Positions 45,652 to 59,671 of a stretch of 64,000 nucleotides of DNA are shown piece after piece. A model generated the notes under the pieces. The model was not told where the DNA came from and did not search any database. It was given only the letters and a program-made list of their open reading frames with translations. This DNA comes from Rhodoferax sp. AJA081-3. Lineage in GTDB: Bacteria > Pseudomonadota > Gammaproteobacteria > Burkholderiales > Burkholderiaceae_C. The stretch's first letter is position 1; every line of letters starts with the position of its first letter. Position numbers and translations under genes: made by a program. The DNA is taken from positions 3,286,001 to 3,350,000 of the forward strand of contig NZ_CP059068.1 in assembly GCF_017798165.1 (NCBI RefSeq), given 5' to 3'.

Positions 45652-46545
45652 ATGTCGATCTTCATCAACAAAGACACCAAGGTCATTACCCAAGGTATTA
45701 CCGGCAAGACCGGTCAATTCCACACCGAAAAGTGCCAGGAATACGCGAACGGCAAAAACTGTTTCGTGGCCGGCGTGAATCCCAAGAAGGCTGGCGAGTC
45801 CATCTTCAACATCCCCATTTACGCCTCCGTCAAAGAGGCAGCGTCCAACACCGGCGCTACCGTGTCCGTGATCTACGTGCCACCAGCCGGTGCTGCGGCT
45901 GCGATCTGGGAAGCGGTTGAAGCCGATCTGGACTTGGCGATTTGTATTACCGAAGGCATTCCCGTCAAGGACATGCTGGAAGTGCGCAACCGTATGAAGG
46001 CCAAGGAAGCCGCTGGCGGCAAGAAGACCCTGCTGCTGGGTCCTAACTGCCCTGGTTTGATCACGCCGGATGAAATCAAGATCGGCATCATGCCCGGTCA
46101 CATCCACCGCAAGGGCCGTATTGGTGTAGTTAGCCGCTCCGGTACGCTGACGTACGAAGCGGTTGCACAACTGACTGAAATCGGTCTGGGTCAGTCCAGT
46201 GCGGTTGGTATTGGTGGCGACCCCATCAACGGCTTGAAGCACATCGACGTGATGAAGGCGTTTAACGACGATCCCGATACCGACGCCGTCATCATGATTG
46301 GCGAAATCGGCGGACCCGACGAAGCCGAAGCCGCCCGCTGGTGCAAACTGAATATGAAGAAACCCATCGTGGGCTTCATCGCTGGCGTAACGGCGCCTCC
46401 CGGTAAGCGTATGGGCCATGCTGGCGCCCTGATCTCTGGTGGTGCCGATACAGCTGATGCCAAGCTAGCCGTGATGGAAGAGTGCGGTTTCACCGTGACC
46501 CGCAACCCCTCTGAAATGGCGAAGCTGCTCAAGGCACTGCTGTAG
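45652..46545 (+). CDS. sucD: Succinate--CoA ligase subunit alpha
   Basis: This 297-aa protein has the CoA-binding Rossmann part with ITGKTGQFHTEKC, GPNCPGLITPDEIKIGIMPG, SRSGTLTYEAV, and the phospho-histidine loop GKRMGHAGALISGG. It starts 5 bp after sucC, so the two are made together. An intrinsic terminator follows at 46602. Confidence 0.97.
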   Translation: MSIFINKDTKVITQGITGKTGQFHTEKCQEYANGKNCFVAGVNPKKAGESIFNIPIYASVKEAASNTGATVSVIYVPPAGAAAAIWEAVEADLDLAICITEGIPVKDMLEVRNRMKAKEAAGGKKTLLLGPNCPGLITPDEIKIGIMPGHIHRKGRIGVVSRSGTLTYEAVAQLTEIGLGQSSAVGIGGDPINGLKHIDVMKAFNDDPDTDAVIMIGEIGGPDEAEAARWCKLNMKKPIVGFIAGVTAPPGKRMGHAGALISGGADTADAKLAVMEECGFTVTRNPSEMAKLLKALL

Positions 46546-46601: not shown

Positions 46602-46637
46602 AAGGTCGGATTACCCTGAGGGTGATCCGGCCTTTTT
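46602..46637 (+). terminator. Intrinsic terminator of sucCD
   Basis: A 15-bp stem (46602-46616 with 46620-46634, including a few G-T pairs), a 3-nt loop and a run of Ts. It lies between sucD and the TerC gene. Confidence 0.85.
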
Positions 46638-46661: not shown

Positions 46662-47360
46662 GTGGAAGAATTTCTAAGCGCACCATTCTGGCTGGCAGTT
46701 GGGCAGATCATCATGATCGACATTCTGCTGGGCGGGGACAACGCCGTCGTGATTGCCCTGGCCTGTCGCCAACTGCCGCCGAACCTTCGGACCAAGGGCA
46801 TTCTGTGGGGTACTGCAGGGGCCATTGTTCTCCGTGTGGTCTTGATTGCATTCGCTCTGACCCTGTTGGCGATTCCATTCCTGAAACTGGTTGGTGCAGT
46901 CCTGTTGCTGTGGATCGGTGTAAAACTGCTCGCGCCGGGTGACGAAGACGCCCACTCCAATATCCAGGGTAGCGACAAGTTGTGGGCTGCCGTCAAAACC
47001 GTGATCGTCGCGGACCTGGTCATGAGCATAGACAACGTGATTGCTATTGCGGGTGCTGCTACCGGAGCAGGTGGTAATCACCAGTTGAGCCTGGTCATCT
47101 TCGGTCTTCTGGTGAGTATTCCCATCATCATTTGGGGTAGCCAGCTGGTGTTGAAGATCATGGACCGCTTTCCCATCATCATCACGGTCGGCGGCATGTT
47201 GTTGGGCTGGATCGCAGGGACCATGGCCCATAGTGACCCCGCAGTGGTGGCCTACATACCGCAAAACCAGATGTGGAATTACGGACTAGGCCTGGCCGGA
47301 GCGATTGCGGTCTACTTGCTTGGTATGTTGAGCAAGCGCAGGGCGTCCCCGCAACACTGA
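46662..47360 (+). CDS. TerC-family integral membrane protein
   Basis: This 232-aa protein has about seven helices and the paired acidic motifs GGDNAVVIAL and SIDNVIAIAG that define the TerC/Alx superfamily. Members move Mn2+ or related ions or help load metals into exported enzymes. The start is GTG 46662 with AGGAAG upstream. The sucCD terminator is just upstream, so it likely has its own promoter. No Mn riboswitch structure was recognised. Confidence 0.88.
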   Translation: MEEFLSAPFWLAVGQIIMIDILLGGDNAVVIALACRQLPPNLRTKGILWGTAGAIVLRVVLIAFALTLLAIPFLKLVGAVLLLWIGVKLLAPGDEDAHSNIQGSDKLWAAVKTVIVADLVMSIDNVIAIAGAATGAGGNHQLSLVIFGLLVSIPIIIWGSQLVLKIMDRFPIIITVGGMLLGWIAGTMAHSDPAVVAYIPQNQMWNYGLGLAGAIAVYLLGMLSKRRASPQH

Positions 47361-47544: not shown

Positions 47545-50256
47545 GTGGCGAAATCTTCTTCATCGAAATCGGGCGCATTCTGGAAGGCCGATTGGTTTGC
47601 TGGTGTAGCGGTGGTGGTCGCCGTCATTGTGCTCAACCTGGCAACCGATTTCATCGGAACCCTGGAGCGCCGTTTTTACGACTTTGCCAGCACCAGTACC
47701 TCTCGCCAGCCGTCGGACCGCATCGCCGTTATCGCCATCGATGACCAAAGCATTGCCAATCTGGGGCGCTGGCCCTGGTCCCGTGACATCCATGCCAAGT
47801 TGATAGACCAGTTGGCGGCGGCCAAGGCCAAAACCATTGTCCACACCGTTTTCTTCTCTGAACCGCAGGTTGACCCTGGTTTGGTATTCATCCGCAAGAT
47901 GAAAGCGGCATTGGGTGCATCACCCGAAGCTGCGGCTGCAAATGAGCAGTTGAACGCGTTGATTGCCGAAGCCGAGACAGCGCTGGATACTGATGCTATT
48001 TTGACCGCCAGTATCAAGAATGCTGGCAATGTGCTGTTGCCTTCCTTTTTCGCTTTGGGTGAGCAGCAGGGAAAGCCGGACACAGCACTGCCTGACTTCG
48101 CGTTGAAAAGCTCGCTGGATGATCCTACAAATTTTTCCATATCAGCCGTTCGTGCGCAGGAACCCATTGATTCCCTCGGGAATGTTGCCGCTGGTGTGGG
48201 GCACTTGAACCAAACGTCGGATCCGGTGGACGGTGCGATACGCCAAGAAGCCTTGCTGGTCAATTTCTATGGAAAAGCTGTGCCTTCGTTGGCTCTGCTT
48301 GGCGCTGCCAAGAGTCTGAATTTGTCAGTTGCAGATATCCGTTTGAATCCAGGACAGGCAGTGCAAATTGGGAAACTGCGGGTAAGCACGGATGAGATTG
48401 CTCAAATGAGGCCGCAGTTTTACAAAGGAAAAGATGGCAGGTCAGCATTCGCGGTTGACTCGTTTTACGACGTGTTGTCCGGGAAGATTCCTGCAACTAA
48501 GTATGCTGGCAAGATTGTGATCATTGGCGCCACTGCGACTGGAGTTGGGACACAGTTCGCCGTGCCTGGAAATCCGGCGCTGTCTCCTGCGGAGTCCATT
48601 GCGCACATCACATCCAGCATTCTCCAGGAACACTTCATCGTTCAGCCCGAGTGGAGTACCTTGGCAGTAGCAGGCTTGTTTTTGCTCGTTGCTGCTTATG
48701 TGATTGCTGTATTGCCGCGACTTTCTGCCGGTATGGCGGCCACTGCGACATCGGTGTTGTTTGTTTCCTTGCTTGCACTGGAGTTCGGTTTGTTGTCAGC
48801 CTCGGCCACTTGGTTGGGATTGGTGTTCCCGGCTACCTTGCTGATTTTGGGGCACCTGGCGTTGACGACCAAACGCTTCCTGATCACCGAAGCGGGCAAA
48901 GTGCAGGCGGACGAAGAGTCGGCCGAGACCAACCGCATGATGGGCCTCGCATTGCAGGGTCAGGGTCAATTGGATATGGCGTTTGACCGCTTCCGCCGCG
49001 TACCCATGAACGAAGCCGTCATGGGCAATTTGTACAGCCTGGCCATGGACTTTGAGCGCAAGCGCCAGTTCAACAAGGCGGAGGCCGTTTACGAGCATAT
49101 GGCGGCCTTTGACAAGGGCTACAAAGATATCAAGGCCAAACTCAACCGTGCCAAGAACCTGTCTGAAACCGTCATGTTGGGTGGTGCGGGCGGGCACCCC
49201 GGTGGCACCATGTTGCTGGATGGCGGCGCTGTTGAAAAGCCCATGTTAGGTCGCTACCAGGTTGAGAAAGAATTGGGCAAAGGTGCCATGGGCGTGGTCT
49301 ATCTGGGCAAAGACCCCAAAATCGGACGTGTGGTTGCGATCAAGACCATGGCATTGAGCCAAGAGTTTGCTGGCGACGAGCTGGTGGATGCCCGAGAGCG
49401 TTTTTTCCGCGAGGCGGAAACGGCGGGTCGCTTACAGCACCAAAACATCGTGACCATTTTCGATGCGGGCGAGGAACATGACTTGGCTTACATCGCGATG
49501 GAGTTCCTCAAGGGCAAGGACCTGGCGGACCATTGCAAGGGAGACCATTTGTTGCCGGTTCCCGTTGTGTTGAGCATCGTCGCGCGTGTTGCGGAGGCAT
49601 TGGCCTATGCACACAAGCAAAACGTGGTGCACCGCGATATCAAGCCTGCCAACATCATGTATGAAATACAAAGCGATACCGTCAAGGTGACCGACTTTGG
49701 TATTGCGCGTATTACCGATTCCAGTAAAACCAAAACCGGGCTCGTATTGGGAACACCAAGCTTCATGTCGCCGGAGCAGTTGGCGGGCAAAAAAGTGGAT
49801 GGTCGTTCGGACCTGTATTCTTTGGGCGTGATGCTGTTCCAGATGCTGGCGGGGGTGTTACCATTTCGGGGCGACTCAATGTCAGAGTTGATGTACAAAA
49901 TTGCCAATGAGGAAGCGCCTGATATTCGAATCATTCGTTCTGAGTTGCCCCAAAATTTGGCAGACGTGGTTGCCTTGTCTTTGAGTAAGAGACCCGAAAC
50001 ACGTTACCAGACAGGAGACCAGTTTGCCGTGGACTTGCGTAGTGTCATAAGCCAGATGTCGGGATCGACGCCCGTCGCCCCTGTCGCGCAGACCTCGGCA
50101 GCGCAGTCGCCAAACGAAAAAACGGTGGCGTTTGCCGCGACCGTGCCTGCTGGAAGTGGTAACAAGGTAGATTTCATGGCAACCGTTCCCGCGTCTGCAG
50201 CGGACTATGAAAAAACAGCCGTCCAACGGGTTAACAAGCCTGGCGAAGCGAATTAA
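47545..50256 (+). CDS. CHASE2 sensor Ser/Thr protein kinase
   Basis: This 903-aa protein has TM1 at about 13-35 and an extracytoplasmic CHASE2 sensor at about 40-370 (DRIAVIAIDDQSIANLGRWPWSRDIHAKLIDQL, and GKIVIIGATATGVGT near its end). Three transmembrane helices follow at about 372-443, then a short helical stretch. A complete Hanks-type kinase occupies about 568-835: GKGAMGVVYLG P-loop, AIKTM lysine, HRDIKPANIMYE catalytic loop near 696, DFGIARI and GTPSFMSPEQ. The Ser/Ala/Thr-rich tail may be a phosphorylation target. GTG 47545 is the start. The PP2C, FHA and cyclase genes follow, indicating a reversible phosphorylation system. Confidence 0.93.
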   Translation: MAKSSSSKSGAFWKADWFAGVAVVVAVIVLNLATDFIGTLERRFYDFASTSTSRQPSDRIAVIAIDDQSIANLGRWPWSRDIHAKLIDQLAAAKAKTIVHTVFFSEPQVDPGLVFIRKMKAALGASPEAAAANEQLNALIAEAETALDTDAILTASIKNAGNVLLPSFFALGEQQGKPDTALPDFALKSSLDDPTNFSISAVRAQEPIDSLGNVAAGVGHLNQTSDPVDGAIRQEALLVNFYGKAVPSLALLGAAKSLNLSVADIRLNPGQAVQIGKLRVSTDEIAQMRPQFYKGKDGRSAFAVDSFYDVLSGKIPATKYAGKIVIIGATATGVGTQFAVPGNPALSPAESIAHITSSILQEHFIVQPEWSTLAVAGLFLLVAAYVIAVLPRLSAGMAATATSVLFVSLLALEFGLLSASATWLGLVFPATLLILGHLALTTKRFLITEAGKVQADEESAETNRMMGLALQGQGQLDMAFDRFRRVPMNEAVMGNLYSLAMDFERKRQFNKAEAVYEHMAAFDKGYKDIKAKLNRAKNLSETVMLGGAGGHPGGTMLLDGGAVEKPMLGRYQVEKELGKGAMGVVYLGKDPKIGRVVAIKTMALSQEFAGDELVDARERFFREAETAGRLQHQNIVTIFDAGEEHDLAYIAMEFLKGKDLADHCKGDHLLPVPVVLSIVARVAEALAYAHKQNVVHRDIKPANIMYEIQSDTVKVTDFGIARITDSSKTKTGLVLGTPSFMSPEQLAGKKVDGRSDLYSLGVMLFQMLAGVLPFRGDSMSELMYKIANEEAPDIRIIRSELPQNLADVVALSLSKRPETRYQTGDQFAVDLRSVISQMSGSTPVAPVAQTSAAQSPNEKTVAFAATVPAGSGNKVDFMATVPASAADYEKTAVQRVNKPGEAN

Positions 50257-50263
50257 GCACCCC

Positions 50264-51049
50264 ATGAATTACCACTTTTGTGCAAAAACAGATCCGGGGC
50301 GAGCCCGAGACAACAACGAAGACTCGGTGGTGTACGACGAGGCGTCCCTGACCACGGTTTTGGCTGACGGCATGGGCGGGTACAACGCCGGGGAAATTGC
50401 CAGTGGCATGGCTACGGCCTTCATCAAATCGGAGTTGAGCCGCTGGTTGATTGAAGCGGGAAGTGGCATCAAGGCGAAGGAAGTGCGCCGTGCCATGGAG
50501 ATTTGTGTCGACAACGCCAACCGTTCCATCTTCAACTCGGCAAACTCTAATGCGAACTACGCGGGCATGGGCACCACGTTGGTGGTTGGCGTGTTCAGGG
50601 ATGACCGGTTGGTGTTGGGGCACATTGGTGACTCCCGTTGCTACCGCTTGCGGGCTGGGTTGCTGGAGCAAATCACCAAAGACCATTCCCTCTTGCAAGA
50701 GCAGATGGACGCCGGACTTATTACAGCTGAACAGGCTGCGACTTCGTCTATCAAGAATTTGGTCACCCGTGCACTGGGTGTGGATGAGTCGGTGTTGCTG
50801 GAAGTCAACGAGCACCAGGTGCAAGTCGGTGATTTGTACCTGATGTGTTCGGATGGTCTGTCCGACATGATCGACGACGACGCGATTCATAATATTGTCA
50901 CTTCCGAAATGACGCTTGAACAAAAGGCATCTCAGCTGATTGATCTGGCCAACGAAAATGGTGGTCGGGACAATATTTCGGTGCTGTTGGTTGAAGTGCA
51001 TGAGGCGCCGGAAAAGCGCGGTTTAATCGCCCGTTGGCTGGGGAAGTAA
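50264..51049 (+). CDS. PP2C-type serine/threonine phosphatase
   Basis: This 261-aa protein has the metal-binding and catalytic motifs of PPM phosphatases: ARDNNEDSV, ADGMGGYNAGEIAS, GHIGDSRCYRL, SDGLSDMID and GGRDNISVLLV. It should reverse phosphorylation by the kinase encoded 7 bp upstream. ATG 50264 lies just after the kinase stop; the longer frame from 50207 overlaps it. Confidence 0.94.
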   Translation: MNYHFCAKTDPGRARDNNEDSVVYDEASLTTVLADGMGGYNAGEIASGMATAFIKSELSRWLIEAGSGIKAKEVRRAMEICVDNANRSIFNSANSNANYAGMGTTLVVGVFRDDRLVLGHIGDSRCYRLRAGLLEQITKDHSLLQEQMDAGLITAEQAATSSIKNLVTRALGVDESVLLEVNEHQVQVGDLYLMCSDGLSDMIDDDAIHNIVTSEMTLEQKASQLIDLANENGGRDNISVLLVEVHEAPEKRGLIARWLGK

Positions 51050-51097
51050 GATGCAGCAGCGTTTTTCAGAAACTAATTACAGAAAAAGGAGTCGATC

Positions 51098-51769
51098 ATG
51101 CCGAAAATGATCGTTTCGATCGATGAGGTCGTGATCAAGGAAGTGCAACTTACCAAGGACAAAACCACCTTGGGGCGCAGGCCGTACAACGACATCGTGA
51201 TCGACAACTTGGCTGTCAGTGGTGAGCATGCCGTGCTTCAGATGAGCGGTGGCGACGTCATTCTGGAAGACCTTAACAGTACCAATGGAACCTACCTGAA
51301 TGGCAAGGCCGTCAAGAAGCAGCAATTGCAGAACGGCGACAGTATTGAGATAGGCAAATACAAAATCAAATTTGTGGGCGACAGCGAGGCCGACAATTTT
51401 GACAAGACCATGGTCGTCAAAGCCAGGCCACCAGCTGGTGCGCCCATGGCAGCGCCGCGGTCGGCGTCTGTGCCGCTATCCGGCGGGGACTCCATTGGCA
51501 TGGGCGCTTTTACAGCATCGATCAAAGTTCTGTCGGGCGCTGCATCTGGACGTGAAGTTCCGTTGACAAAAGTGGTTACAACCATCGGTAAACCGGGTGT
51601 TGCCGTGGCTGCCATTACCCGCCGTCAACAAGGTTTTGTAGTGCACCATGTGGAAGGTGCTGGTAACCCAACACTGAACGGGTCGCCCATCAAGGCGGAC
51701 CCCGTCTCTTTGAAAAACGGGGATCTCATCGAGTTGGCGGGCACGCAAATGCAATTTGTGCAGACCTGA
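51098..51769 (+). CDS. FHA-domain protein (canonical N-terminal FHA plus a degenerate C-terminal one)
   Basis: This 223-aa protein has an N-terminal FHA domain with GRRPYNDIVIDNLAVSGEHAVL, the phosphothreonine-binding Arg and Ser-x-x-His, and LEDLNSTNGTYLNG. The C-terminal half (about 140-223) repeats the FHA pattern without those ligand residues (TTIGKPG, GFVVHHVEGAGNPTLNG, IELAGTQMQFV). FHA domains read phosphothreonine marks, so this protein probably docks phosphorylated partners of the neighbouring kinase. A good AAAAAGGAG precedes the ATG. Confidence 0.88.
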   Translation: MPKMIVSIDEVVIKEVQLTKDKTTLGRRPYNDIVIDNLAVSGEHAVLQMSGGDVILEDLNSTNGTYLNGKAVKKQQLQNGDSIEIGKYKIKFVGDSEADNFDKTMVVKARPPAGAPMAAPRSASVPLSGGDSIGMGAFTASIKVLSGAASGREVPLTKVVTTIGKPGVAVAAITRRQQGFVVHHVEGAGNPTLNGSPIKADPVSLKNGDLIELAGTQMQFVQT

Positions 51770-51824
51770 CACACCGTAGTGTTTAGGCTGTGTCCATTGC
51801 GCGCCAGTTTTCAAGGTGATGCGC

Positions 51825-54074
51825 ATGAAAACAATAGCTAAGCACTGGCAGCGGATTGCGGTCACACTGATTCCGCTGGTTTTGGTGTTGTTGCATGCCA
51901 CGGGTGTTATGCCTTTGGGCACCATGCAGAGGCTGGACGATGTCATCTACGACACGCGTCTGCGGGCAACCATGCCCAATACGCTGGACGAGCGGATTGT
52001 CATCGTCGACATCGACGAAAAGAGTCTTGCAGAGGTTGGGCGCTTTCCTTGGGGGCGCAACAAGGTCGGCCATCTGGTCGACACTCTTTTCAAGCAGCAA
52101 CACATTGCGTTGTTGGGTTTTGACATTGTGTTCGCTGAGCCCGACGAAAGCTCGGGACTGAGCCGGCTGAACGAACTGGCGCGCGGCGAGTTCAAAGACC
52201 AGGCTGGATTTGCAGAGCGGCTCAAACAGCTGCAACCAGAGTTGGATTACGACGCTCTGTTTGCCAAGGTGCTTGAGAACCGCCCGGTTGTTCTGGGGTA
52301 CTACTTCAGCAGCGACGGTGATGGACGTACGGTTGGCACTTTGCCATCGCCTGTTATGTCGAAAAACGACCTGAAGGGCAGAAGCGTAGAGGCCTACGCG
52401 TGGACTGGTTTTGGCTCCAATATCGACATACTGGCCAAAGCTGCACCAGTGGCAGGGCATTTCAATACCACTCCGGACATTGATGGTGTTGTGCGGTCGT
52501 TGCCATTGCTAGCGGAATACAAGGGCGAATACTACGAATCCTTGGCGCTGGCCATGTTTAGGCGGTTGGCAGGTTCACCGAAGGTCGTGCCCGGATTTTC
52601 CGACGAACAGTGGTTGTCCCGCAGTTACCAGGGCCTGGACCGAATCATGCTCAAGGAAGGCCAGTCGTCACTCTCTATATCCGTGGACAAGCACATCTCT
52701 ACCCTTGTACCGTACCGTGGAGCAGGTGGTGTGAAAGGTGGCTCGTTTCGTTATGTGTCGGCTGCCGATGTCTTGGCTGGGCGTTTGCCGGCGGACAGCC
52801 TGAAAGACAAAATCGTCCTCGTCGGCACGACGGCACCGGGGCTGCTGGATTTGCGTGTGACCCCGGTAGGCCAGGTCTATCCGGGCGTTGAGGCCCATGC
52901 AAATCTCATTTCGGCTTGGTTGGATGACAAAGTTACCCTCAAACCAGACTATGCGATGGGGTATGACGTCTTCGTGCTGATTGTTGCCGGGCTGTTGCTG
53001 GCTATTGGCCTACCCTTGCTTTCAGCGCCACGTGCGGTGCTGCTGAGTGTTGGGGTGTTAGCGACGGTCACTGCGCTCAACACGTGGCTCTATATGGGTT
53101 TTGGGCTGGTGATGCCTCTGGCAGCAGCCCTGGTCATGACGCTGACCGCATTTGCCTTGAATATGAGCTATGGCTACTTTGTCGAAAGTCGCTCGAAGCG
53201 TGAGTTGGCACATTTGTTTGGTACCTACGTCCCGCCTGAGCTTGTTGATGAGATGGTTAAAGACCCCGACAGTTACAGCATGAAAGCCACCAACCGTGAG
53301 CTGACGGTGATGTTTTGCGACATGCGTGGCTTTACCAAAATGTCTGAGCAGATGGAGCCCACCCAGCTACAAGAATTGTTGACGGGGGTATTCAGTGAGC
53401 TGACTAGCTTGATCCGCGCCAACCGCGGCACTATCGACAAGTACATGGGTGATTGTGTGATGGCATTTTGGGGCGCGCCGGTTGAAACGCCAGAACACGC
53501 CAATCTTGCAGTGAAATCCGCCATGGAGATGGCCAGTGCTGTGCGTGGTATCAATGCAGACCACAGGGCGCGTGGACTACCGGAAATTGGCATCGGCATT
53601 GGTCTGAATACCGGGACCATGTGCGTGGGTGATATGGGCTCCAATATTCGGCGTGCCTATACCGTCATCGGGGATGCTGTGAACCTGGGCTCTCGACTGG
53701 AAGGATTGTCCAAGGTATACGGGGTCGATATGGTGGTGAGCGAAACAACCCGTAAACAGGCGACCGATTTTGCATGGCAAGAGTTGGATCGTGTTCGCGT
53801 AAAAGGCAAGGAACAGGCAGTGGCAATTTTCTGGCCCATGGCGCCGACTCCACAACTGGGCGAGGCTGCAAGTACCGAGCTCAAGACTTGGGTCTCCTTC
53901 ATAAAGGCGTACAGAGCCCAAAATTGGGATCAAGCAGACGTATTGATGCTCAACTTAATGCGCATGAATGCCAAAAAATTCCTTTACCAAATGTACTCCG
54001 AGCGGGTAGCCTCCATGCGTTTACTCCCATTTGATCCTGAATGGGACGGCGCAACCAATTTCGAAACCAAGTGA
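51825..54074 (+). CDS. CHASE2-domain class III adenylate cyclase
   Basis: This is a 749-aa protein; starts at 51816 and 51819 are also possible. TM1 is near residues 8-27, a CHASE2 domain spans about 30-360 (ERIVIVDIDEKSLAEVGRFPWGRNK, and KIVLVGTTAPGLLDLRVTPV), three TM helices follow, then a class III cyclase domain at about 480-660. Both metal-binding Asp are seen (FCDMRGFT and GDCVMAFWG). The base-specifying Lys is in DKYMGD, and AYTVIGDAVNLGSRLE has the Thr of class IIIb cyclases. It should make cAMP from ATP. The phosphodiesterase gene follows by 10 bp. Its CHASE2 sensor resembles that of the upstream kinase, so one signal may feed both. Confidence 0.92.
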   Translation: MKTIAKHWQRIAVTLIPLVLVLLHATGVMPLGTMQRLDDVIYDTRLRATMPNTLDERIVIVDIDEKSLAEVGRFPWGRNKVGHLVDTLFKQQHIALLGFDIVFAEPDESSGLSRLNELARGEFKDQAGFAERLKQLQPELDYDALFAKVLENRPVVLGYYFSSDGDGRTVGTLPSPVMSKNDLKGRSVEAYAWTGFGSNIDILAKAAPVAGHFNTTPDIDGVVRSLPLLAEYKGEYYESLALAMFRRLAGSPKVVPGFSDEQWLSRSYQGLDRIMLKEGQSSLSISVDKHISTLVPYRGAGGVKGGSFRYVSAADVLAGRLPADSLKDKIVLVGTTAPGLLDLRVTPVGQVYPGVEAHANLISAWLDDKVTLKPDYAMGYDVFVLIVAGLLLAIGLPLLSAPRAVLLSVGVLATVTALNTWLYMGFGLVMPLAAALVMTLTAFALNMSYGYFVESRSKRELAHLFGTYVPPELVDEMVKDPDSYSMKATNRELTVMFCDMRGFTKMSEQMEPTQLQELLTGVFSELTSLIRANRGTIDKYMGDCVMAFWGAPVETPEHANLAVKSAMEMASAVRGINADHRARGLPEIGIGIGLNTGTMCVGDMGSNIRRAYTVIGDAVNLGSRLEGLSKVYGVDMVVSETTRKQATDFAWQELDRVRVKGKEQAVAIFWPMAPTPQLGEAASTELKTWVSFIKAYRAQNWDQADVLMLNLMRMNAKKFLYQMYSERVASMRLLPFDPEWDGATNFETK

Positions 54075-54084
54075 GACGCTCACC

Positions 54085-54876
54085 GTGAAAGTACGTGTAC
54101 TCGGATGTTCAGGTGCCATTGCCAAGGATTGCAAGACAACCTCGTTCCTCGTTGACGGTGAGATCCTGGTGGACGCCGGCACGGGTGTGGGTGATCTCAC
54201 GCTGGATGAAATGCGCAGCATCGACCATGTCCTGTTGACCCACTCCCACTTGGACCATGTTGCGGCACTGCCTTTGATGGTGGATGCTATCGCTGCACAG
54301 CGCAAAGCACCTTTAAAAGTTCATGCACTGGCGGGAACCATAGCGGCACTGAGAACCCACATTTTCAACAATGTGATATGGCCTGATTTCTCGCGCATAC
54401 CCACGGCAGAAGCGCCATTCATAAGCTTTCATGAAATCAAGGTAGGGCAAACGATTCAGCTCTCGAACAAATACATCGAAGTGTTACCCGCGGTGCATAC
54501 CGTGCCGGCGGCCGGTTTTGCAATCACTGCGGGAAGCGGTTGTTGGGTATTTACGGGGGACACCGAGCGCAACCAAGCCTTTTGGGACCGGGTTAACCAG
54601 CTGAATGTTGCCATGCTGGTGATAGAGACGGCTTTTAGCAACCGAGAAAAAGACCTTGCAAAGCGCAGCCTCCATTTGTCTCCTACCGTGCTTGCAAATG
54701 AACTCGATTGCATTGCCAAGGGCAAGAACTATCCCATTTACATAACCCATACCAAACCAGCGGAAACAGAATTGATCATGGCTGAAATCCAACGGTTTGA
54801 CCAAACCCAGCCCTTTGGTCCAAACGTGACGCACGACATCCGCAGGATGCATGCCGGCCAGGAGTTTGACATATGA
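54085..54876 (+). CDS. Metallo-beta-lactamase-fold 3',5'-cyclic-nucleotide phosphodiesterase (class II-like)
   Basis: This 263-aa protein has VRVLGCSGA at the start, the metal motif THSHLDHVAALP (HxHxDH), a later VHTVPAAGFAI, CWVFTGDTE and an ITHTKPAE end. This is the pattern of class II cyclic nucleotide phosphodiesterases (PDE1/CpdP-like). It should hydrolyse the cyclase product. The start is GTG 54085, 10 bp after the cyclase stop; the frame from 54031 overlaps the cyclase. It overlaps the ATPase gene by ATGA. Confidence 0.85.
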   Translation: MKVRVLGCSGAIAKDCKTTSFLVDGEILVDAGTGVGDLTLDEMRSIDHVLLTHSHLDHVAALPLMVDAIAAQRKAPLKVHALAGTIAALRTHIFNNVIWPDFSRIPTAEAPFISFHEIKVGQTIQLSNKYIEVLPAVHTVPAAGFAITAGSGCWVFTGDTERNQAFWDRVNQLNVAMLVIETAFSNREKDLAKRSLHLSPTVLANELDCIAKGKNYPIYITHTKPAETELIMAEIQRFDQTQPFGPNVTHDIRRMHAGQEFDI

Positions 54877-57293
54877 GTACCGTAGTTACGCCTGGAGCCT
54901 CTGATAAAGCATCAGAGCAAGCCTTTTTTGAATCTCAAAAGCAGCCGTCACAGAAGCGGGGCATGACCTTTGAGGCGCTGTTTTACCGACAGCTGCACCA
55001 CGTCACCGCCCGCATCCACGATACGGAAAATCTTGAGCAAATCATGCTGGAGGCCAGCCAGGATATTTGCAAATTACTCAATGCAGACCGATTGACCCTT
55101 TACGCGGTGAATGAGGATCAGACTGCGATTGTTTCCAAGATCAAGACCGGACTCAACAGCAGCAGCGACCTGAAGCTGCCCATCTCGCCCCAAAGCATTG
55201 CAGGTTATGTCGCCTTCAGCCGCACCTCGCTGAATTTGCCAGACGTGTATGACGATGAGGCACTCAAGCAGATTCACCCTTCGTTGACCTTCCTGAAGGT
55301 GGTGGACAAACGGTCCGGCTACCGTACCAAACAAATGCTGGTTGCGCCCATATTAGAGGGCAAGACTCTGCACGGTGTGCTGCAGGTTATCAACAACAAA
55401 AGTGACGAGCCGTTTGGCGATCTGGAGGTGGACGGCGTATCCGAATTGTGCAAGACGCTGGCGACAGCCATTCGGCAACGTGCCAACGGAGCGACCGTCG
55501 CACCGCCCAAAAAAGCCACCAAATATGACTCCTTGGTTGCCGACGGGTTGCTGACGGATGAGGAGCTGAACCAATGCATTTCGGACGCGCGCTCCGAGGG
55601 CAAGTCTGTAGAACATCTGTTGATGGCGCAATACAAGGTCCGCCCGCTTCAGATTGGCCCGTCATTGGCAAAGTTTTTTGGTGTGCCGTACGAGTCGTTT
55701 AATACCGGGCGGATCCGCTCAGAAATGCTGCATGGCTCATTGAAGCGCGAATTTATTGAGGAGCAGGGCTGGATTCCGCTGGAGGAGTCGCCTGAGGGGC
55801 TGGTCATCATGTGCATGGACCCCGAGGCCGTGCGCGGCTCCAGGGTGGTCCCACAGGTGTTCCCCCGTATCGCCAAATTCTCCTATCGGGTTACCACGCA
55901 GACAGAGTTCCAAGAAACCTTGGGCCAGCTTTTCGGCACGGCGGCAGATACAAGCACCATTGACCAGCTCTTGGCCGACATGGATGGTGGGCCAATCGAT
56001 GACGGCTCCAACGATGACTCCTTGGAATCTGCAGCAGCGGACAACGAGCTGGTCAAGTTTGTCAACAAGGTCATCATCGACGCCTACAACCAGAAGGTGT
56101 CGGACATCCACATCGAGCCCATGCCCGGTAAGTTCAAGACCGGCATCCGCTTCCGCATCGATGGCAGCCTGGTCCCCTATGTTGAGGTGCCAGCCCACTT
56201 TCGGTCGGCCATGGTCACGCGCCTGAAGATCATGTGTGACCTGGACATTTCGGAACGCCGCAAGCCCCAGGACGGCAAGATCAAGTTCAAGAAGTACGGT
56301 CCGCTGGACATTGAGCTACGCGTGGCCACGATTCCGTCAGCCGGTGGTGTTGAAGACGTGGTGATGCGGATTCTGGCGGCCGGCGAACCGATTCCCATGG
56401 AAAAACTGGGGCTAACACCGCACAATAAGGAGCGCTTGGAGGCTACGGTCAGCAAACCTTATGGCCTGTTCTATGTATGCGGCCCAACGGGGTCTGGCAA
56501 GACCACGACCTTGCATTCCATCCTCAAGTTCCTCAATACACCGGACACCAAGATCTGGACCGCCGAGGACCCGGTTGAAATTACGCAAAAAGGTCTACGC
56601 CAAGTCCAGATCAACAAGAAGGCAGGCATTGACTTTGCCCTGATCATGCGAGCCTTTTTGCGGGCCGACCCAGACATCATCATGGTCGGTGAGTCCCGCG
56701 ACAAAGAGACGGTGTCCATGGGGGTGGAAGCATCCCTGACTGGCCACTTGGTGTTCTCAACCCTGCACACCAATTCGGCGCCCGAATCCATTACGCGCCT
56801 GATGGATATGGGTATGGACCCGTTTAACTTTGCTGATGCGCTCTTAGGTATCCTTGCTCAGCGTCTGGCCAAGAAATTGTGCGATTGCAAGGTTGCCTAT
56901 GTGCCGGATGCAGACGAGTTCCGCCTTTTCTTGACCGAGTACGCGGAAGAACTGCGTCACTCAAAGGCGTGGAAGGCTGATCTGGAGGGTGAACGCAAAA
57001 AGCTAGAGGACAGCTGGCTGAAAACCTATGGGGAAGACGGCAAGGTTAAGCTGTATAAGGCGGTGGGTTGCGACAAGTGCAGCAAGACCGGCTACAAAGG
57101 CCGTATTGGTTTGCACGAGCTGCTGGTGGCGGATGACGGTGTCAAGAAGCTCATCCAGGAGCGCGCGCGCGTGGCTGAATTATTTGCGTCTGCCGTAGAG
57201 GGAGGCATGCGCACTCTAAAGATGGATGGCATGGAGAAGGTCATGATGGGGCTGACGGATTTGAAGATGGTGCGGCAGGTTTGTATTAAGTGA
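54873..57293 (+). CDS. GAF-domain secretion/pilus ATPase (GspE/PilB superfamily)
   Basis: This 806-aa protein has an N-terminal GAF domain at about 45-200 (LEQIMLEASQDICKLLNADRLTLYAVNEDQ, MLVAPILEGKTLHGVLQVINNKSDEPFGDLEVD). A MshEN/GspE_N-like domain follows (about 215-340), then the ATPase core: Walker A GPTGSGKTTTLHS, Asp box EDPVEI, Walker B region DPDIIMVGESRDKET (usual GEIRD), and HLVFSTLHTNSAP. One CxxC pair (CDKC) is in the C-terminal part. Such ATPases drive assembly of type IV pili or type II secretion. The GAF domain could sense a cyclic nucleotide. It overlaps the phosphodiesterase gene and precedes the pilin gene. Confidence 0.9.
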   Translation: MSTVVTPGASDKASEQAFFESQKQPSQKRGMTFEALFYRQLHHVTARIHDTENLEQIMLEASQDICKLLNADRLTLYAVNEDQTAIVSKIKTGLNSSSDLKLPISPQSIAGYVAFSRTSLNLPDVYDDEALKQIHPSLTFLKVVDKRSGYRTKQMLVAPILEGKTLHGVLQVINNKSDEPFGDLEVDGVSELCKTLATAIRQRANGATVAPPKKATKYDSLVADGLLTDEELNQCISDARSEGKSVEHLLMAQYKVRPLQIGPSLAKFFGVPYESFNTGRIRSEMLHGSLKREFIEEQGWIPLEESPEGLVIMCMDPEAVRGSRVVPQVFPRIAKFSYRVTTQTEFQETLGQLFGTAADTSTIDQLLADMDGGPIDDGSNDDSLESAAADNELVKFVNKVIIDAYNQKVSDIHIEPMPGKFKTGIRFRIDGSLVPYVEVPAHFRSAMVTRLKIMCDLDISERRKPQDGKIKFKKYGPLDIELRVATIPSAGGVEDVVMRILAAGEPIPMEKLGLTPHNKERLEATVSKPYGLFYVCGPTGSGKTTTLHSILKFLNTPDTKIWTAEDPVEITQKGLRQVQINKKAGIDFALIMRAFLRADPDIIMVGESRDKETVSMGVEASLTGHLVFSTLHTNSAPESITRLMDMGMDPFNFADALLGILAQRLAKKLCDCKVAYVPDADEFRLFLTEYAEELRHSKAWKADLEGERKKLEDSWLKTYGEDGKVKLYKAVGCDKCSKTGYKGRIGLHELLVADDGVKKLIQERARVAELFASAVEGGMRTLKMDGMEKVMMGLTDLKMVRQVCIK

Positions 57294-57397
57294 CAAAAAT
57301 GTCTTCACCAAGAATTGAAGAGACAAAAGATGCGGCAAATTGACTCCATCGCTGCCGATACTGACTATTTTGTATAGATGGCATGGACGAAAAACCT

Positions 57398-57413
57398 TGG
57401 CACGGAATCTGCT
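57398..57413 (+). promoter_or_regulatory. Sigma-54 promoter of pilA
   Basis: TGGCACGGAATCTGCT matches TGGCACG-N4-TTGCW with one change; GG and GC are separated by the required 10 nt. It lies 42-57 bp before the pilin ATG. Type IV pilin genes are commonly sigma-54 and PilR dependent. Confidence 0.8.
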
Positions 57414-57454
57414 GGTCAATGTGTTCCTAGTTCCCTACATCAAAGGAGTTTTAT

Positions 57455-57940
57455 ATGAAGCGTTCTATGCAACAGGGTTTTACCCTGATCGAACTGATGA
57501 TCGTGGTTGCGATTATTGGTATTTTGGCTGCAGTGGCACTGCCTGCATATCAGGATTACACAGTTCGGGCGAAAAATTCAGAAGTTATTTTGGCGGCTTC
57601 GGGTTGCCGTACTTCTATTACCGAAACCATTCAATCGGCAGCAGTATCTTTGCCGGCGGATAATGGTTGGGGTTGTGAGTCGTCGGTTCCTACATCACAA
57701 TATGTCGCGTCCGTTGCGACCACCAGCACTGGCGTTATCACAGTGACGAGTCAAAATATCCCAAATACTGGCAATCCAGTAACAACTGGTGGAACAGTTC
57801 AGCTGATCCCCACCAAAGACTCCGCAGGCGCCCAATTCGCCAACAGCGATGTGAGCCTTACAGTTTATAAATGGACTTGCGGTGGCGGTACGACTTCGAT
57901 CACTCCAAAGTTTCTGCCTGGTTCTTGCCGCGGCAACTGA
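57455..57940 (+). CDS. pilA: Type IV pilin
   Basis: This 161-aa prepilin has a class III signal: six-residue leader MKRSMQQG, cleavage before Phe, then [32 protein letters not shown] with Glu5. The globular part is Ser/Thr/Asn-rich and has a C-terminal disulphide region with TCGGG and GSCRGN. It is the major structural subunit of type IV pili. A strong AAAGGAG precedes the ATG, an upstream sigma-54 promoter and a downstream terminator frame the gene, and pglL follows. Confidence 0.94.
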
Positions 57941-57960
57941 GTTGAACTCACGGTTGAACA

Positions 57961-57987
57961 AACGCCCCTCTGGGGCGTTTTTTTTTG
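57961..57987 (+). terminator. Intrinsic terminator of pilA
   Basis: An 8-bp stem (AACGCCCC with GGGGCGTT), a TCT loop and a run of eight or so Ts. The T-run ends right at the start of the next gene. Confidence 0.92.
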
Positions 57988-57988
57988 A

Positions 57989-59671
57989 ATGACTTGCTTC
58001 TCGATGCCATTCTTTTTCTTTTTCTTTTTGTTTGCCAGTTGGCTGCAGCCACTGCATTTCCCACCGTGGGTCAGTTGGCACAGTGAAATACTGGCTTTTC
58101 TGGCAGTCCTCTTCTCTGCGTGGCAACTAATAATCGTCTCTGCAAAACGAGGGGCGTGGCCTACGATTCCTCTCCCCATTCCAGCCGCGATGTTGTTGGG
58201 AATCGGTCTGCTGATTGGGCTTCAATGGTTGGTAGGGTTGGTGCCGTTTGTTGGCGACATCTATGTGTTCGGAGCATATATCTTGCTCTGTACTGCAGCA
58301 ATGACTCTAGGCTATCTAAGTGGTCAACGGCGACATGAGCTGATTCACGGAATAGCAGTCGTTATTCTTTTGGGTGCGCTGGTTTCTGCGACTATTTCCT
58401 TGATGCAGGCATTTGAGCTATCCCAAGGCGTCAATTGGATCAACAGCATGCGGGAGGCACGGCGGCCGGGTGCTAATCTGGCGCAACCGAATCAGCTAGC
58501 CACTTTACTGCTTATGGGTTTAGCTAGCGTTTTATTCCTGTTTGAGTTGCGCAAGTTTGGCATGTTGCCCGCAGCGCTGATGTCATTCCTACTCTTGTTA
58601 AGTCTGGCTGCCACGGAATCAAGGGCTGGACTGCTTGGTTTCTCTGTCCTGAGTGTTTGGTGGTTTGCAAAGTACAAATCCATTGGTGCTCAATTAAGGC
58701 CATGGACGATGGCCTTAATTGGCGTAATTTACCTAGTCTTGTACTGGAGTTGGCCAATATTGATGGGAGAGGTCTTTCAGCTAACGGGAGGAGTACTCCC
58801 GGTCAACTCAGTAGCGTACCATCGGTGGATCATCTGGCCACAGCTGTTGCAGGCGGTCCTGTTACGGCCATGGTGGGGTTGGGGCGCGGGGCAAGTTTCA
58901 ACCGCACACAACGCGGTAGTGGACGCCTATCTCACTAGTGAGGCCTATACCTATGCACACAATATTTTGATAGATGCTGCGCTGGGATTTGGTCTGCCTA
59001 TCACCATCCTGCTGATGCTTTTCGCTGGCGTCTGGCTTTGGCGCCGAATTCAAGCCGCAAGGCAATTGATGCCCTGGTACTGCCTGGCCGTCACAATTCC
59101 TGTAGCAACACATTCTTTGGTGGAGTTTCCATTCGCGTATGCATACTTCCTTGTGCCGGTAATGTTTACACTGGGTGCGCTAGAAGGAGTATTGAACGTC
59201 AAGCCTGCCTTGCAACTTCATGCAAAGCCAGTTGGGATGGGGCTTCTGGTAGCCACTGTTCTGTTGATATGGTCCTTTTTCGAATACCTGAAAATAGAAG
59301 AGGATTTTCGCGTTGTGCGTTTTGAGGCCTTACGCGTTGGACAAACTCCACCAGGCTATCAGCGGCCAAACGTCTATGTTCTCACGCAACTGGATGCACT
59401 GCTAAATGGCGGCCGAATTGTGGCAAGACCCAATATGCCTGAACAGGAAATCGAATTGGCCAAAGCGGTAGCCCTGCGATTTCCATGGCCAGCAACCCAG
59501 AATCGGTATGCTGTAGCTTTGGCGCTTAATGGCAATCCGCAAGAGGCTGCTCGCCAGATGCGCGTCATGCGGGCACACCACGGGCCCAAAGTTTATGCAA
59601 AAATCAGAGCCGCCTGGATCTTGTTGGCGAACGAAAAGTACCCACAATTGCAGGAAATGCAATTGCCCTGA
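57989..59671 (+). CDS. pglL: PglL/Wzy-type O-oligosaccharyltransferase
   Basis: This 560-aa protein has about 11-12 hydrophobic helices. The Wzy_C block contains ARRPGANLAQPNQLATLLLMGLAS, LSLAATESRAGLLG, YHRWIIWPQLLQAVLLRPWWGWGAGQ and HNILIDAALGFG. A PglL-type soluble C-terminal half of about 120 residues follows. Neighbouring pilA makes it a probable pilin glycosylation ligase of the PglL type, transferring a lipid-linked glycan to the pilin in the periplasm. The start ATG 57989 follows the T-run of the terminator; ATG 58004 is an alternative. Residues 7-13 are seven codons (PFFFFFF) from a CTTTTT triplication. Confidence 0.82.
   Translation: MTCFSMPFFFFFFLFASWLQPLHFPPWVSWHSEILAFLAVLFSAWQLIIVSAKRGAWPTIPLPIPAAMLLGIGLLIGLQWLVGLVPFVGDIYVFGAYILLCTAAMTLGYLSGQRRHELIHGIAVVILLGALVSATISLMQAFELSQGVNWINSMREARRPGANLAQPNQLATLLLMGLASVLFLFELRKFGMLPAALMSFLLLLSLAATESRAGLLGFSVLSVWWFAKYKSIGAQLRPWTMALIGVIYLVLYWSWPILMGEVFQLTGGVLPVNSVAYHRWIIWPQLLQAVLLRPWWGWGAGQVSTAHNAVVDAYLTSEAYTYAHNILIDAALGFGLPITILLMLFAGVWLWRRIQAARQLMPWYCLAVTIPVATHSLVEFPFAYAYFLVPVMFTLGALEGVLNVKPALQLHAKPVGMGLLVATVLLIWSFFEYLKIEEDFRVVRFEALRVGQTPPGYQRPNVYVLTQLDALLNGGRIVARPNMPEQEIELAKAVALRFPWPATQNRYAVALALNGNPQEAARQMRVMRAHHGPKVYAKIRAAWILLANEKYPQLQEMQLP

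Follow-up and report, generated by a model that had tools for sequence, protein, structure and literature searches.

Can protein phosphorylation, cyclic AMP (cAMP) and a type IV pilus motor belong to a single circuit? The question is raised by a run of genes in a 64,000-nucleotide stretch of the Rhodoferax sp. AJA081-3 genome (hereafter the window; 3.286-3.350 Mb of 5.17 Mb), where genes for a Ser/Thr kinase, a PP2C phosphatase, an FHA-domain protein, an adenylyl cyclase, a metallo-beta-lactamase-fold (MBL) protein and a GAF-containing PilB/GspE-like ATPase precede a pilin gene and a PglL-family gene. Comparison of genome sequences identifies the six-gene run as a real, widespread, conserved and modular pilus-associated signalling locus of the order Burkholderiales. 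Its best explanation, which we put at about an even chance, would be a phosphorylation and cAMP circuit steering an accessory type IV pilus motor. Gene order, domain families, conserved active sites, cAMP-contact positions and the association with pilin and PilQ are read from the sequences; from these we infer ligand, substrate, phosphosite and pilus effect. A search of the open-access papers in PMC found no description of the locus.

The six-gene order is kept far beyond close relatives

Open reading frames (ORFs) and Pfam/NCBIfam models agree on eight consecutive genes, all on the forward strand, in the families that an earlier note on this DNA had named; the gene starts used are internal to some longest ORFs. 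The spacings given in that note for the first six genes (7, 48, 55, 10 and -4 bp) were reproduced. No sigma-70 promoter was found before the kinase gene in a scan that returned 2 matches against 9.3 expected.

As a refutation test of its own proposal, the earlier note had named a comparison of gene order across Burkholderiales. We took the order as defined by GTDB, inferred from the names of near relatives, and sampled 300 of its genomes. The GAF-MshEN part of the ATPase was present in 124 of them (55/135 genera), in 57/299 genomes of a family sample, in 13/369 of a class sample (2 inside the order, the other 11 distant, with 29 to 34 percent identity) and in 35/299 of a phylum sample. Eighty of the 124 non-window order matches, hand-chosen to spread over genera, were fetched with up to 20 kb of surroundings; orientation was clear for all but L114, leaving 79, of which 69 were judged for gene pairings; the others ran into a contig end or lacked the ATPase. 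A second set, the titled loci of a named collection, comprised the best 80 matches listed from a contig scan. These are near relatives and include Rhodoferax, Polaromonas, Curvibacter, Ramlibacter and an uncultured beta proteobacterium; among the matches listed, the nearest titled relatives of the ATPase were Rhodoferax metagenome-assembled genomes.

The complete series kinase-PP2C-FHA-cyclase-MBL-GAF-ATPase was found in 38/79 order loci, which represent 26 genera and 19 families, and its gene order was identical throughout. When the commonest pattern was taken for each genus (69 judged loci), kinase, PP2C, FHA, cyclase and MBL were all present in 26/46 genera. Of the best 80 titled loci, 66 had at least 9 kb upstream: 35 were complete and one more was cut in the ATPase (the six genes are present, for instance, in L157 of Polaromonas sp. 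JS666), 15 had only PP2C-FHA-ATPase and 6 had kinase-PP2C-FHA-ATPase, with PP2C in 65 and FHA in all 66. The order is thus kept far beyond close relatives, and the proposal withstood this comparison. A lineage oddity was rejected on the same grounds, as the run recurs in many families. This recurrence, together with the near-universal active-site residues described below, is more than chance would give. Gene distance matrices correlate for most pairs (26 genera), as is also expected from vertical descent; those of FHA and cyclase do not (r 0.07, 129/500 shuffles).

Beyond the order, kinase, PP2C or FHA genes were found in 0/20 fetched distant GAF-ATPase loci. A CHASE2 cyclase lay within ~10 kb in 4/20 and a GAF-HD-GYP gene in 4/20, counts made with no control. 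The distant cyclase neighbours suggest an older link between cyclase and GAF-ATPase. Loci L230, L233, L238, L240, L242 and L243 have GAF-ATPases near CHASE2 cyclases, GAF-HD-GYP genes or both, mostly on the opposite strand.

Pilin genes and PilQ accompany the ATPase

The earlier note linked the run to type IV pili, and two results are in keeping with this. A prepilin-type gene was found within 6 kb downstream in 77/121 ATPase loci with at least 4.5 kb of sequence there, against 0/282 upstream control tiles; among window tiles 6/116 were positive, and the window itself holds a pilin. PilQ was present in 122/124 ATPase genomes compared with 124/176 others (p = 1e-11), and the two genomes lacking it are assemblies of ~470 and ~330 contigs.

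In the window, the PilA-like type IV pilin gene (57455-57940, by Pfam) follows a sigma-54-like promoter element (57398-57412, one mismatch). Sigma-54-like sites in the window as a whole are at chance level (8 matches, 12 expected). Using a pattern relaxed to fit the window site, a like element was found upstream of the prepilin gene in 69/77 relatives and, with the same relaxed pattern, in 157/6360 random 260-bp stretches, in keeping with the earlier description of the pilin as sigma-54-promoted. A terminator-like hairpin (57960-57980) separates the pilin gene from the PglL/Wzy_C family gene (57989-59671; Wzy_C/PglL_A by Pfam), which is of the pilin O-glycosylation type by family name. Since the terminator scan returned 23 sites against 15 expected in the window, the hairpin is only a consensus match; its position suggests that the pilin gene is transcribed separately.

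The ATPase carries a GAF domain of predicted cAMP type

The GAF-MshEN-T2SSE ATPase (54873-57293) belongs to the PilB/GspE type (T2SSE) by Pfam/NCBIfam. Walker A and B, the His box and three zinc cysteines are kept in 154 to 155 of 157 ATPases, with no substitution seen. Source names were generic (GspE/PulE/PilB-like, T2SS/T4P/T4SS family ATPase, TadA) among the 120 of 4853 protein relatives listed. The genome holds a full PilB elsewhere, with 800 bits, above the cut-off of the PilB model TIGR02538. Because this true PilB exists and the GAF-ATPase, at 466 bits, falls below the cut-off, the latter is best seen as a probable accessory motor. TIGR02538 has 13 matches in this genome, one of them above the cut-off; some are secretion ATPases of other kinds or pieces of a single gene. 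CHASE2 has five matches there.

The GAF domain (55029-55472) is of the CyaB2/phosphodiesterase, cyclic nucleoside monophosphate (cNMP)-binding type. By profile its closest match is with the cAMP-binding GAFs of CyaB2, and the nearest solved GAFs are mostly cAMP or cGMP binders. According to PMC4411481, the cAMP contacts of CyaB2 GAFb are Arg291, Thr293, Ile308 and Asp356. At these positions the ATPase GAFs have R in 29/29, T in 28/29, V or I in 28/29 and D in 29/29; the Asn359 position is T or S, and T in CyaB2 GAFa. The mapping comes from a profile alignment, in which R43, T45 and D115 are numbered from residue 31 of the window ATPase (alignment A1).

The MshEN part was considered as a second sensor. 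In PMC5013675, MshEN receptors of cyclic di-GMP (c-di-GMP) are described by two 24-residue RLG...LxxxLxxQ motifs. A relaxed form of this published motif was found in 0/29 ATPases of the window family, in which R, L, G and Q of motif I and R, G and Q of motif II are replaced. We rejected c-di-GMP sensing by this part, its motif being lost. The earlier proposal that the GAF-ATPase is an effector of the signalling genes is sustained in part: a GAF of predicted cAMP type adjoins genes for an adenylyl cyclase and a class-II-phosphodiesterase-like protein.

Cyclase and MBL are predicted to make and degrade cAMP

Class III adenylyl cyclases use two metal-binding Asp, K and T/D to select adenine, and N and R to stabilize the transition state. 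The CHASE2-Guanylate_cyc protein (51825-54074) belongs to this class: in relatives each position is kept in 103 or 104 of 104 cyclases, and the adenylate-type K-T pair in 104/104.

The MBL-fold protein (54085-54876; Lactamase_B_2/PDEase_II) keeps its metal ligands, the HSHLDH site, in 128 to 129 of 130 copies. The PDEase_II model of Pfam gave 48.2 bits over a threshold of 23.7. The nearest protein is the yeast cAMP phosphodiesterase PDE1, which was best by profile and Z and second by Foldseek. The metal site and this nearest relation to class II phosphodiesterases support a predicted class II cAMP phosphodiesterase function; the score against the NCBIfam cyclic-nucleotide phosphodiesterase equivalog NF041851 was 37.1 bits, below its cut-off of 400.

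A conserved threonine follows the FHA domain

Residues of the phosphorylation enzymes are equally well kept. In the CHASE2-Pkinase (47545-50256) the K, HRD, N, DFG and APE residues are present in 114/114 scored (115 copies). The PP2C phosphatase (50264-51049) has its metal Asp residues in 168 to 169 of 169 and belongs to the NCBIfam Stp1/IreP equivalog (247 bits, cut-off 230). In the FHA-domain protein (51098-51769) the phosphothreonine-site G, R, S, H and N are kept in 170/170 scored (172 copies); a neighbouring N, residue 60, varies. By eye, residues ~130-223 of the window protein resemble a further, degenerate FHA domain.

Just after the FHA domain (residues 23-86) lies an NFDKTMVV motif with T104 (codon 51407-51409). 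A [DE][KRQE]T[MVLIA] motif, mostly FDKTM or FEKTM, occurs at this place in 132/161 proteins and in 2 percent of shuffles. Where a locus has 4.5 kb or more upstream, it is kept in 94/101 with a kinase gene compared with 30/49 without (p = 4e-6), and T104 is likely the kinase site. As 13/14 genomes with a kinase-less locus have another kinase match, loss of the kinase gene need not mean loss of phosphorylation. The kinase tail itself has EKT[V/A] motifs at T860 and T891. Such a motif occurs in only 41/106 complete kinases (shuffles 3 percent), and as a lead it ranks behind the FHA-side motif. The two motifs were picked out in the window proteins before being counted, with controls using the same patterns.

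The locus is modular and gains further parts

The earlier note treated the run as one unit. As a fixed unit it does not stand: members separate, and the pilin seemingly has its own promoter and terminator. Both CHASE2 proteins, kinase and cyclase, are gained or lost together. In the 69 order loci both were present in 41, the kinase only in 3, the cyclase only in 4 and neither in 21 (p = 7e-11); the corresponding numbers in the titled loci (66 judged of the best 80) were 39, 7, 1 and 19 (p = 7e-10).

Two further genes join the run in relatives. A GAF-HD-GYP gene lies directly 3' of the ATPase gene in 60/79 order loci, and the called ORFs have the HD motif in 45/45 and the GYP motif in 44/45. 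A gene with PF00027 cNMP-binding and rhodanese domains lies between MBL and ATPase in 13/79 order loci from 5 families, with a phosphate-cassette pattern in 5/7 called ORFs. Neither gene was seen in the best 80 titled loci or in the window locus, and the earlier note missed them because of this absence from the window.

Four loci of one lineage (f16; L095, L099, L102 and L107) are arranged terC-universal stress protein-MBL-GAF-ATPase, with kinase, PP2C, FHA and cyclase not in the locus; no CHASE2-cyclase match was found in these genomes. As a pair, MBL and ATPase may have an older function of their own.

To see the locus without its ATPase, we used 16 ATPase-less family loci anchored on sucD and 20 FHA-anchored loci, both hand-picked from longer lists; pilins were sought there with the window pilin only, and some were perhaps missed. 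A pilin lay within ~7 kb in 10/16 family loci. In L245 terC is followed directly by the pilin, and L249 and L256 have neither module nor pilin. Gene content varied among the 20 FHA-anchored loci, which are mostly from ATPase-less genomes; some of them had a kinase, cyclase, MBL, HD-GYP or pilin gene. L273, L275, L277, L278 and L280, from several other families, showed a second layout, in which a kinase gene on the opposite strand stands between two PP2C-FHA pairs; it looks like a paralogous phospho-signalling locus.

Upstream of the run in the window are sucD (succinyl-CoA ligase alpha, 45652-46545; NCBIfam) and a gene for a TerC/YjbE family membrane protein (46662-47360; Pfam/NCBIfam), with a terminator-like hairpin between them (46602-46634), all on the forward strand. 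sucD was upstream in 73/80 of the best titled loci versus 17/79 order loci, which confines this flank to near relatives plus a small number of other families. The terC counts were 56/80 and 18/79. A fixed sucD-terC frame across the order was rejected, with sucD or terC upstream in only 10/38 complete order loci. A universal stress protein gene was seen in the upstream part, shortly after terC where terC was seen, in L072, L076, L077, L078, L095, L096, L099, L102, L103 and L107.

A proposed circuit and its alternatives

In the circuit that we propose, two CHASE2 membrane sensors would read outside signals. The Ser/Thr kinase, countered by PP2C, would phosphorylate T104 in the FDKTM motif of the FHA protein, and perhaps its own tail, and the FHA domain would read the resulting phosphothreonines. 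The class III cyclase would make cAMP, the class-II-type MBL phosphodiesterase would destroy it, and the GAF of the PilB-like ATPase would bind it. GAF-cAMP and the FHA branch would together set the accessory motor's help in extending type IV pili, whose subunit would be the adjacent pilin, transcribed separately with sigma-54. In many relatives the GAF-HD-GYP enzyme would add a c-di-GMP output. A direct step from cAMP to motor is a well-motivated hypothesis. More tentatively, and with somewhat less than even confidence, we suggest the full version: that the pilus motor is itself the cAMP receptor, the GAF-ATPase being switched directly, with the T104 switch as second input and GAF-HD-GYP as c-di-GMP output.

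Several observations weigh against this circuit and are given here together with three alternatives; in addition, all counts and tests ignore relatedness. The alternative that survives best, although we consider it doubtful, is that the signalling genes are a conserved phosphorylation and cAMP module with another output, pilin adjacency reflecting an old, permissive site. It would account for the seemingly independent promoter and terminator of the pilin, for the direct terC-pilin neighbourhood in L245, for the PP2C-FHA loci L264 and L274, in which neither ATPase nor pilin was detected, and for the 44/121 ATPase loci that showed no prepilin motif in the 6 kb downstream. PP2C-FHA is kept in 12/16 ATPase-less family loci, some of which also have a kinase, cyclase or MBL gene, and PilQ is common anyway. 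Against this alternative, the ATPase is a pilus/type II secretion system (T2SS)-type motor, its genomes almost always have PilQ, and PP2C-FHA adjoins a pilin even without the ATPase, both being present in 8/16 family loci.

A second alternative, which we regard as unlikely, is that the ATPase serves another machine (T2SS or pseudopilus) or that its GAF binds a ligand other than cAMP, leaving the cAMP branch uncoupled from the motor. The ATPase scores 465.8 bits against TIGR02538, short of the 675.65 cut-off, the PilB and GspE scores are close (466 and 427 bits), and the genome has other PilB/GspE-like ATPases besides its full PilB. The NKFDE motif of the GAF is partly kept, N144 and F151 being invariant and K and the D-E pair not. 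Foldseek does not single out CyaB2 from other GAFs: 4mcw, which shares the contact R and D, came first and 1ykd eighth, and the top 50 include PtsP and photoreceptor GAFs. MBL-ATPase loci without a CHASE2 cyclase also exist. Strict cyclase-MBL pairing holds in the titled loci (66 judged of the best 80: both 37, cyclase only 3, MBL only 4, neither 22; p = 1e-10) and fails across the order (69 loci: both 42, cyclase only 3, MBL only 18, neither 6; p = 0.056); in 8/21 genomes searched, MBL was in the locus and no CHASE2-cyclase match was found at E 1e-30. The earlier pairing of adenylate cyclase with a cNMP phosphodiesterase is supported by the cyclase residues and the class-II-like MBL, and is weakened by the 18/69 loci with MBL and no cyclase. 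What speaks for a cAMP-bound pilus motor is that the nearest solved GAFs by profile mostly bind cAMP or cGMP, that the contact residues are kept, and that prepilin genes so often lie downstream.

Equally improbable is a third alternative, that the substrate of MBL is not cAMP but RNA or some other phosphodiester, its place in the operon having a different cause: the RNase Z model does score higher than the cyclic-nucleotide phosphodiesterase model (57.5 and 37.1 bits, both far below cut-off), but yeast PDE1 leads in sequence profile and Z, the HSHLDH site is kept, and MBL is lost together with the cyclase in the titled loci.

Relation to known systems

Pili are known to be controlled by cAMP through transcription, while for c-di-GMP a direct action on pilus ATPases is known. 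In Pseudomonas aeruginosa, type IV pili are under cAMP control by CyaB, CpdA and Vfr, the last being the transcription factor through which cAMP acts. The proposed circuit would likewise make and degrade cAMP to control pilus function; it differs in having a cNMP-type GAF on a pilus-type ATPase, with kinase, phosphatase and FHA genes in the same locus. TfpB is an accessory pilus motor, a second PilB-like extension ATPase beside the true PilB, as is proposed for the window ATPase; the latter scores 382 bits against a TfpB cut-off of 850, and TfpB is not known to carry a GAF. In OdhI/GarA the phospho-motif is N-terminal to the FHA domain. The window protein shares with them small size, a conserved threonine motif adjoining the FHA domain and an accompanying Ser/Thr kinase, but its motif is C-terminal and its NCBIfam OdhI score is 65, with a cut-off of 200, which places it outside that family.

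MshE (PMC5013675) is likewise a T2SSE ATPase with an N-terminal nucleotide-sensing region, whereas the window family lacks the MshEN c-di-GMP motif and has a CyaB2-type GAF in front. Anabaena CyaB2 (PMC4411481) resembles the window GAF in cAMP-contact residues and fold; there tandem GAFs are on the cyclase itself, and here one GAF is on a pilus-type motor. Two further papers report three PilB paralogs in Ramlibacter tataouinensis (PMC3164672) and, in Dechloromonas aromatica, a secretion-gene region flanked by genes for a histidine kinase and an adenylate cyclase (PMC2907700), an arrangement other than that of the window locus.

If the proposed circuit is true, it would provide a post-translational route in which a motor with a cAMP-type GAF is encoded together with cAMP enzymes, a kinase, a phosphatase and an FHA reader. 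The named residues, T104 of the FHA protein and R43, T45 and D115 of the GAF, make the model testable. It would also suggest functions for several generically annotated genes in many bacteria, and under the full version a large part of one bacterial order would possess a three-messenger pilus controller.

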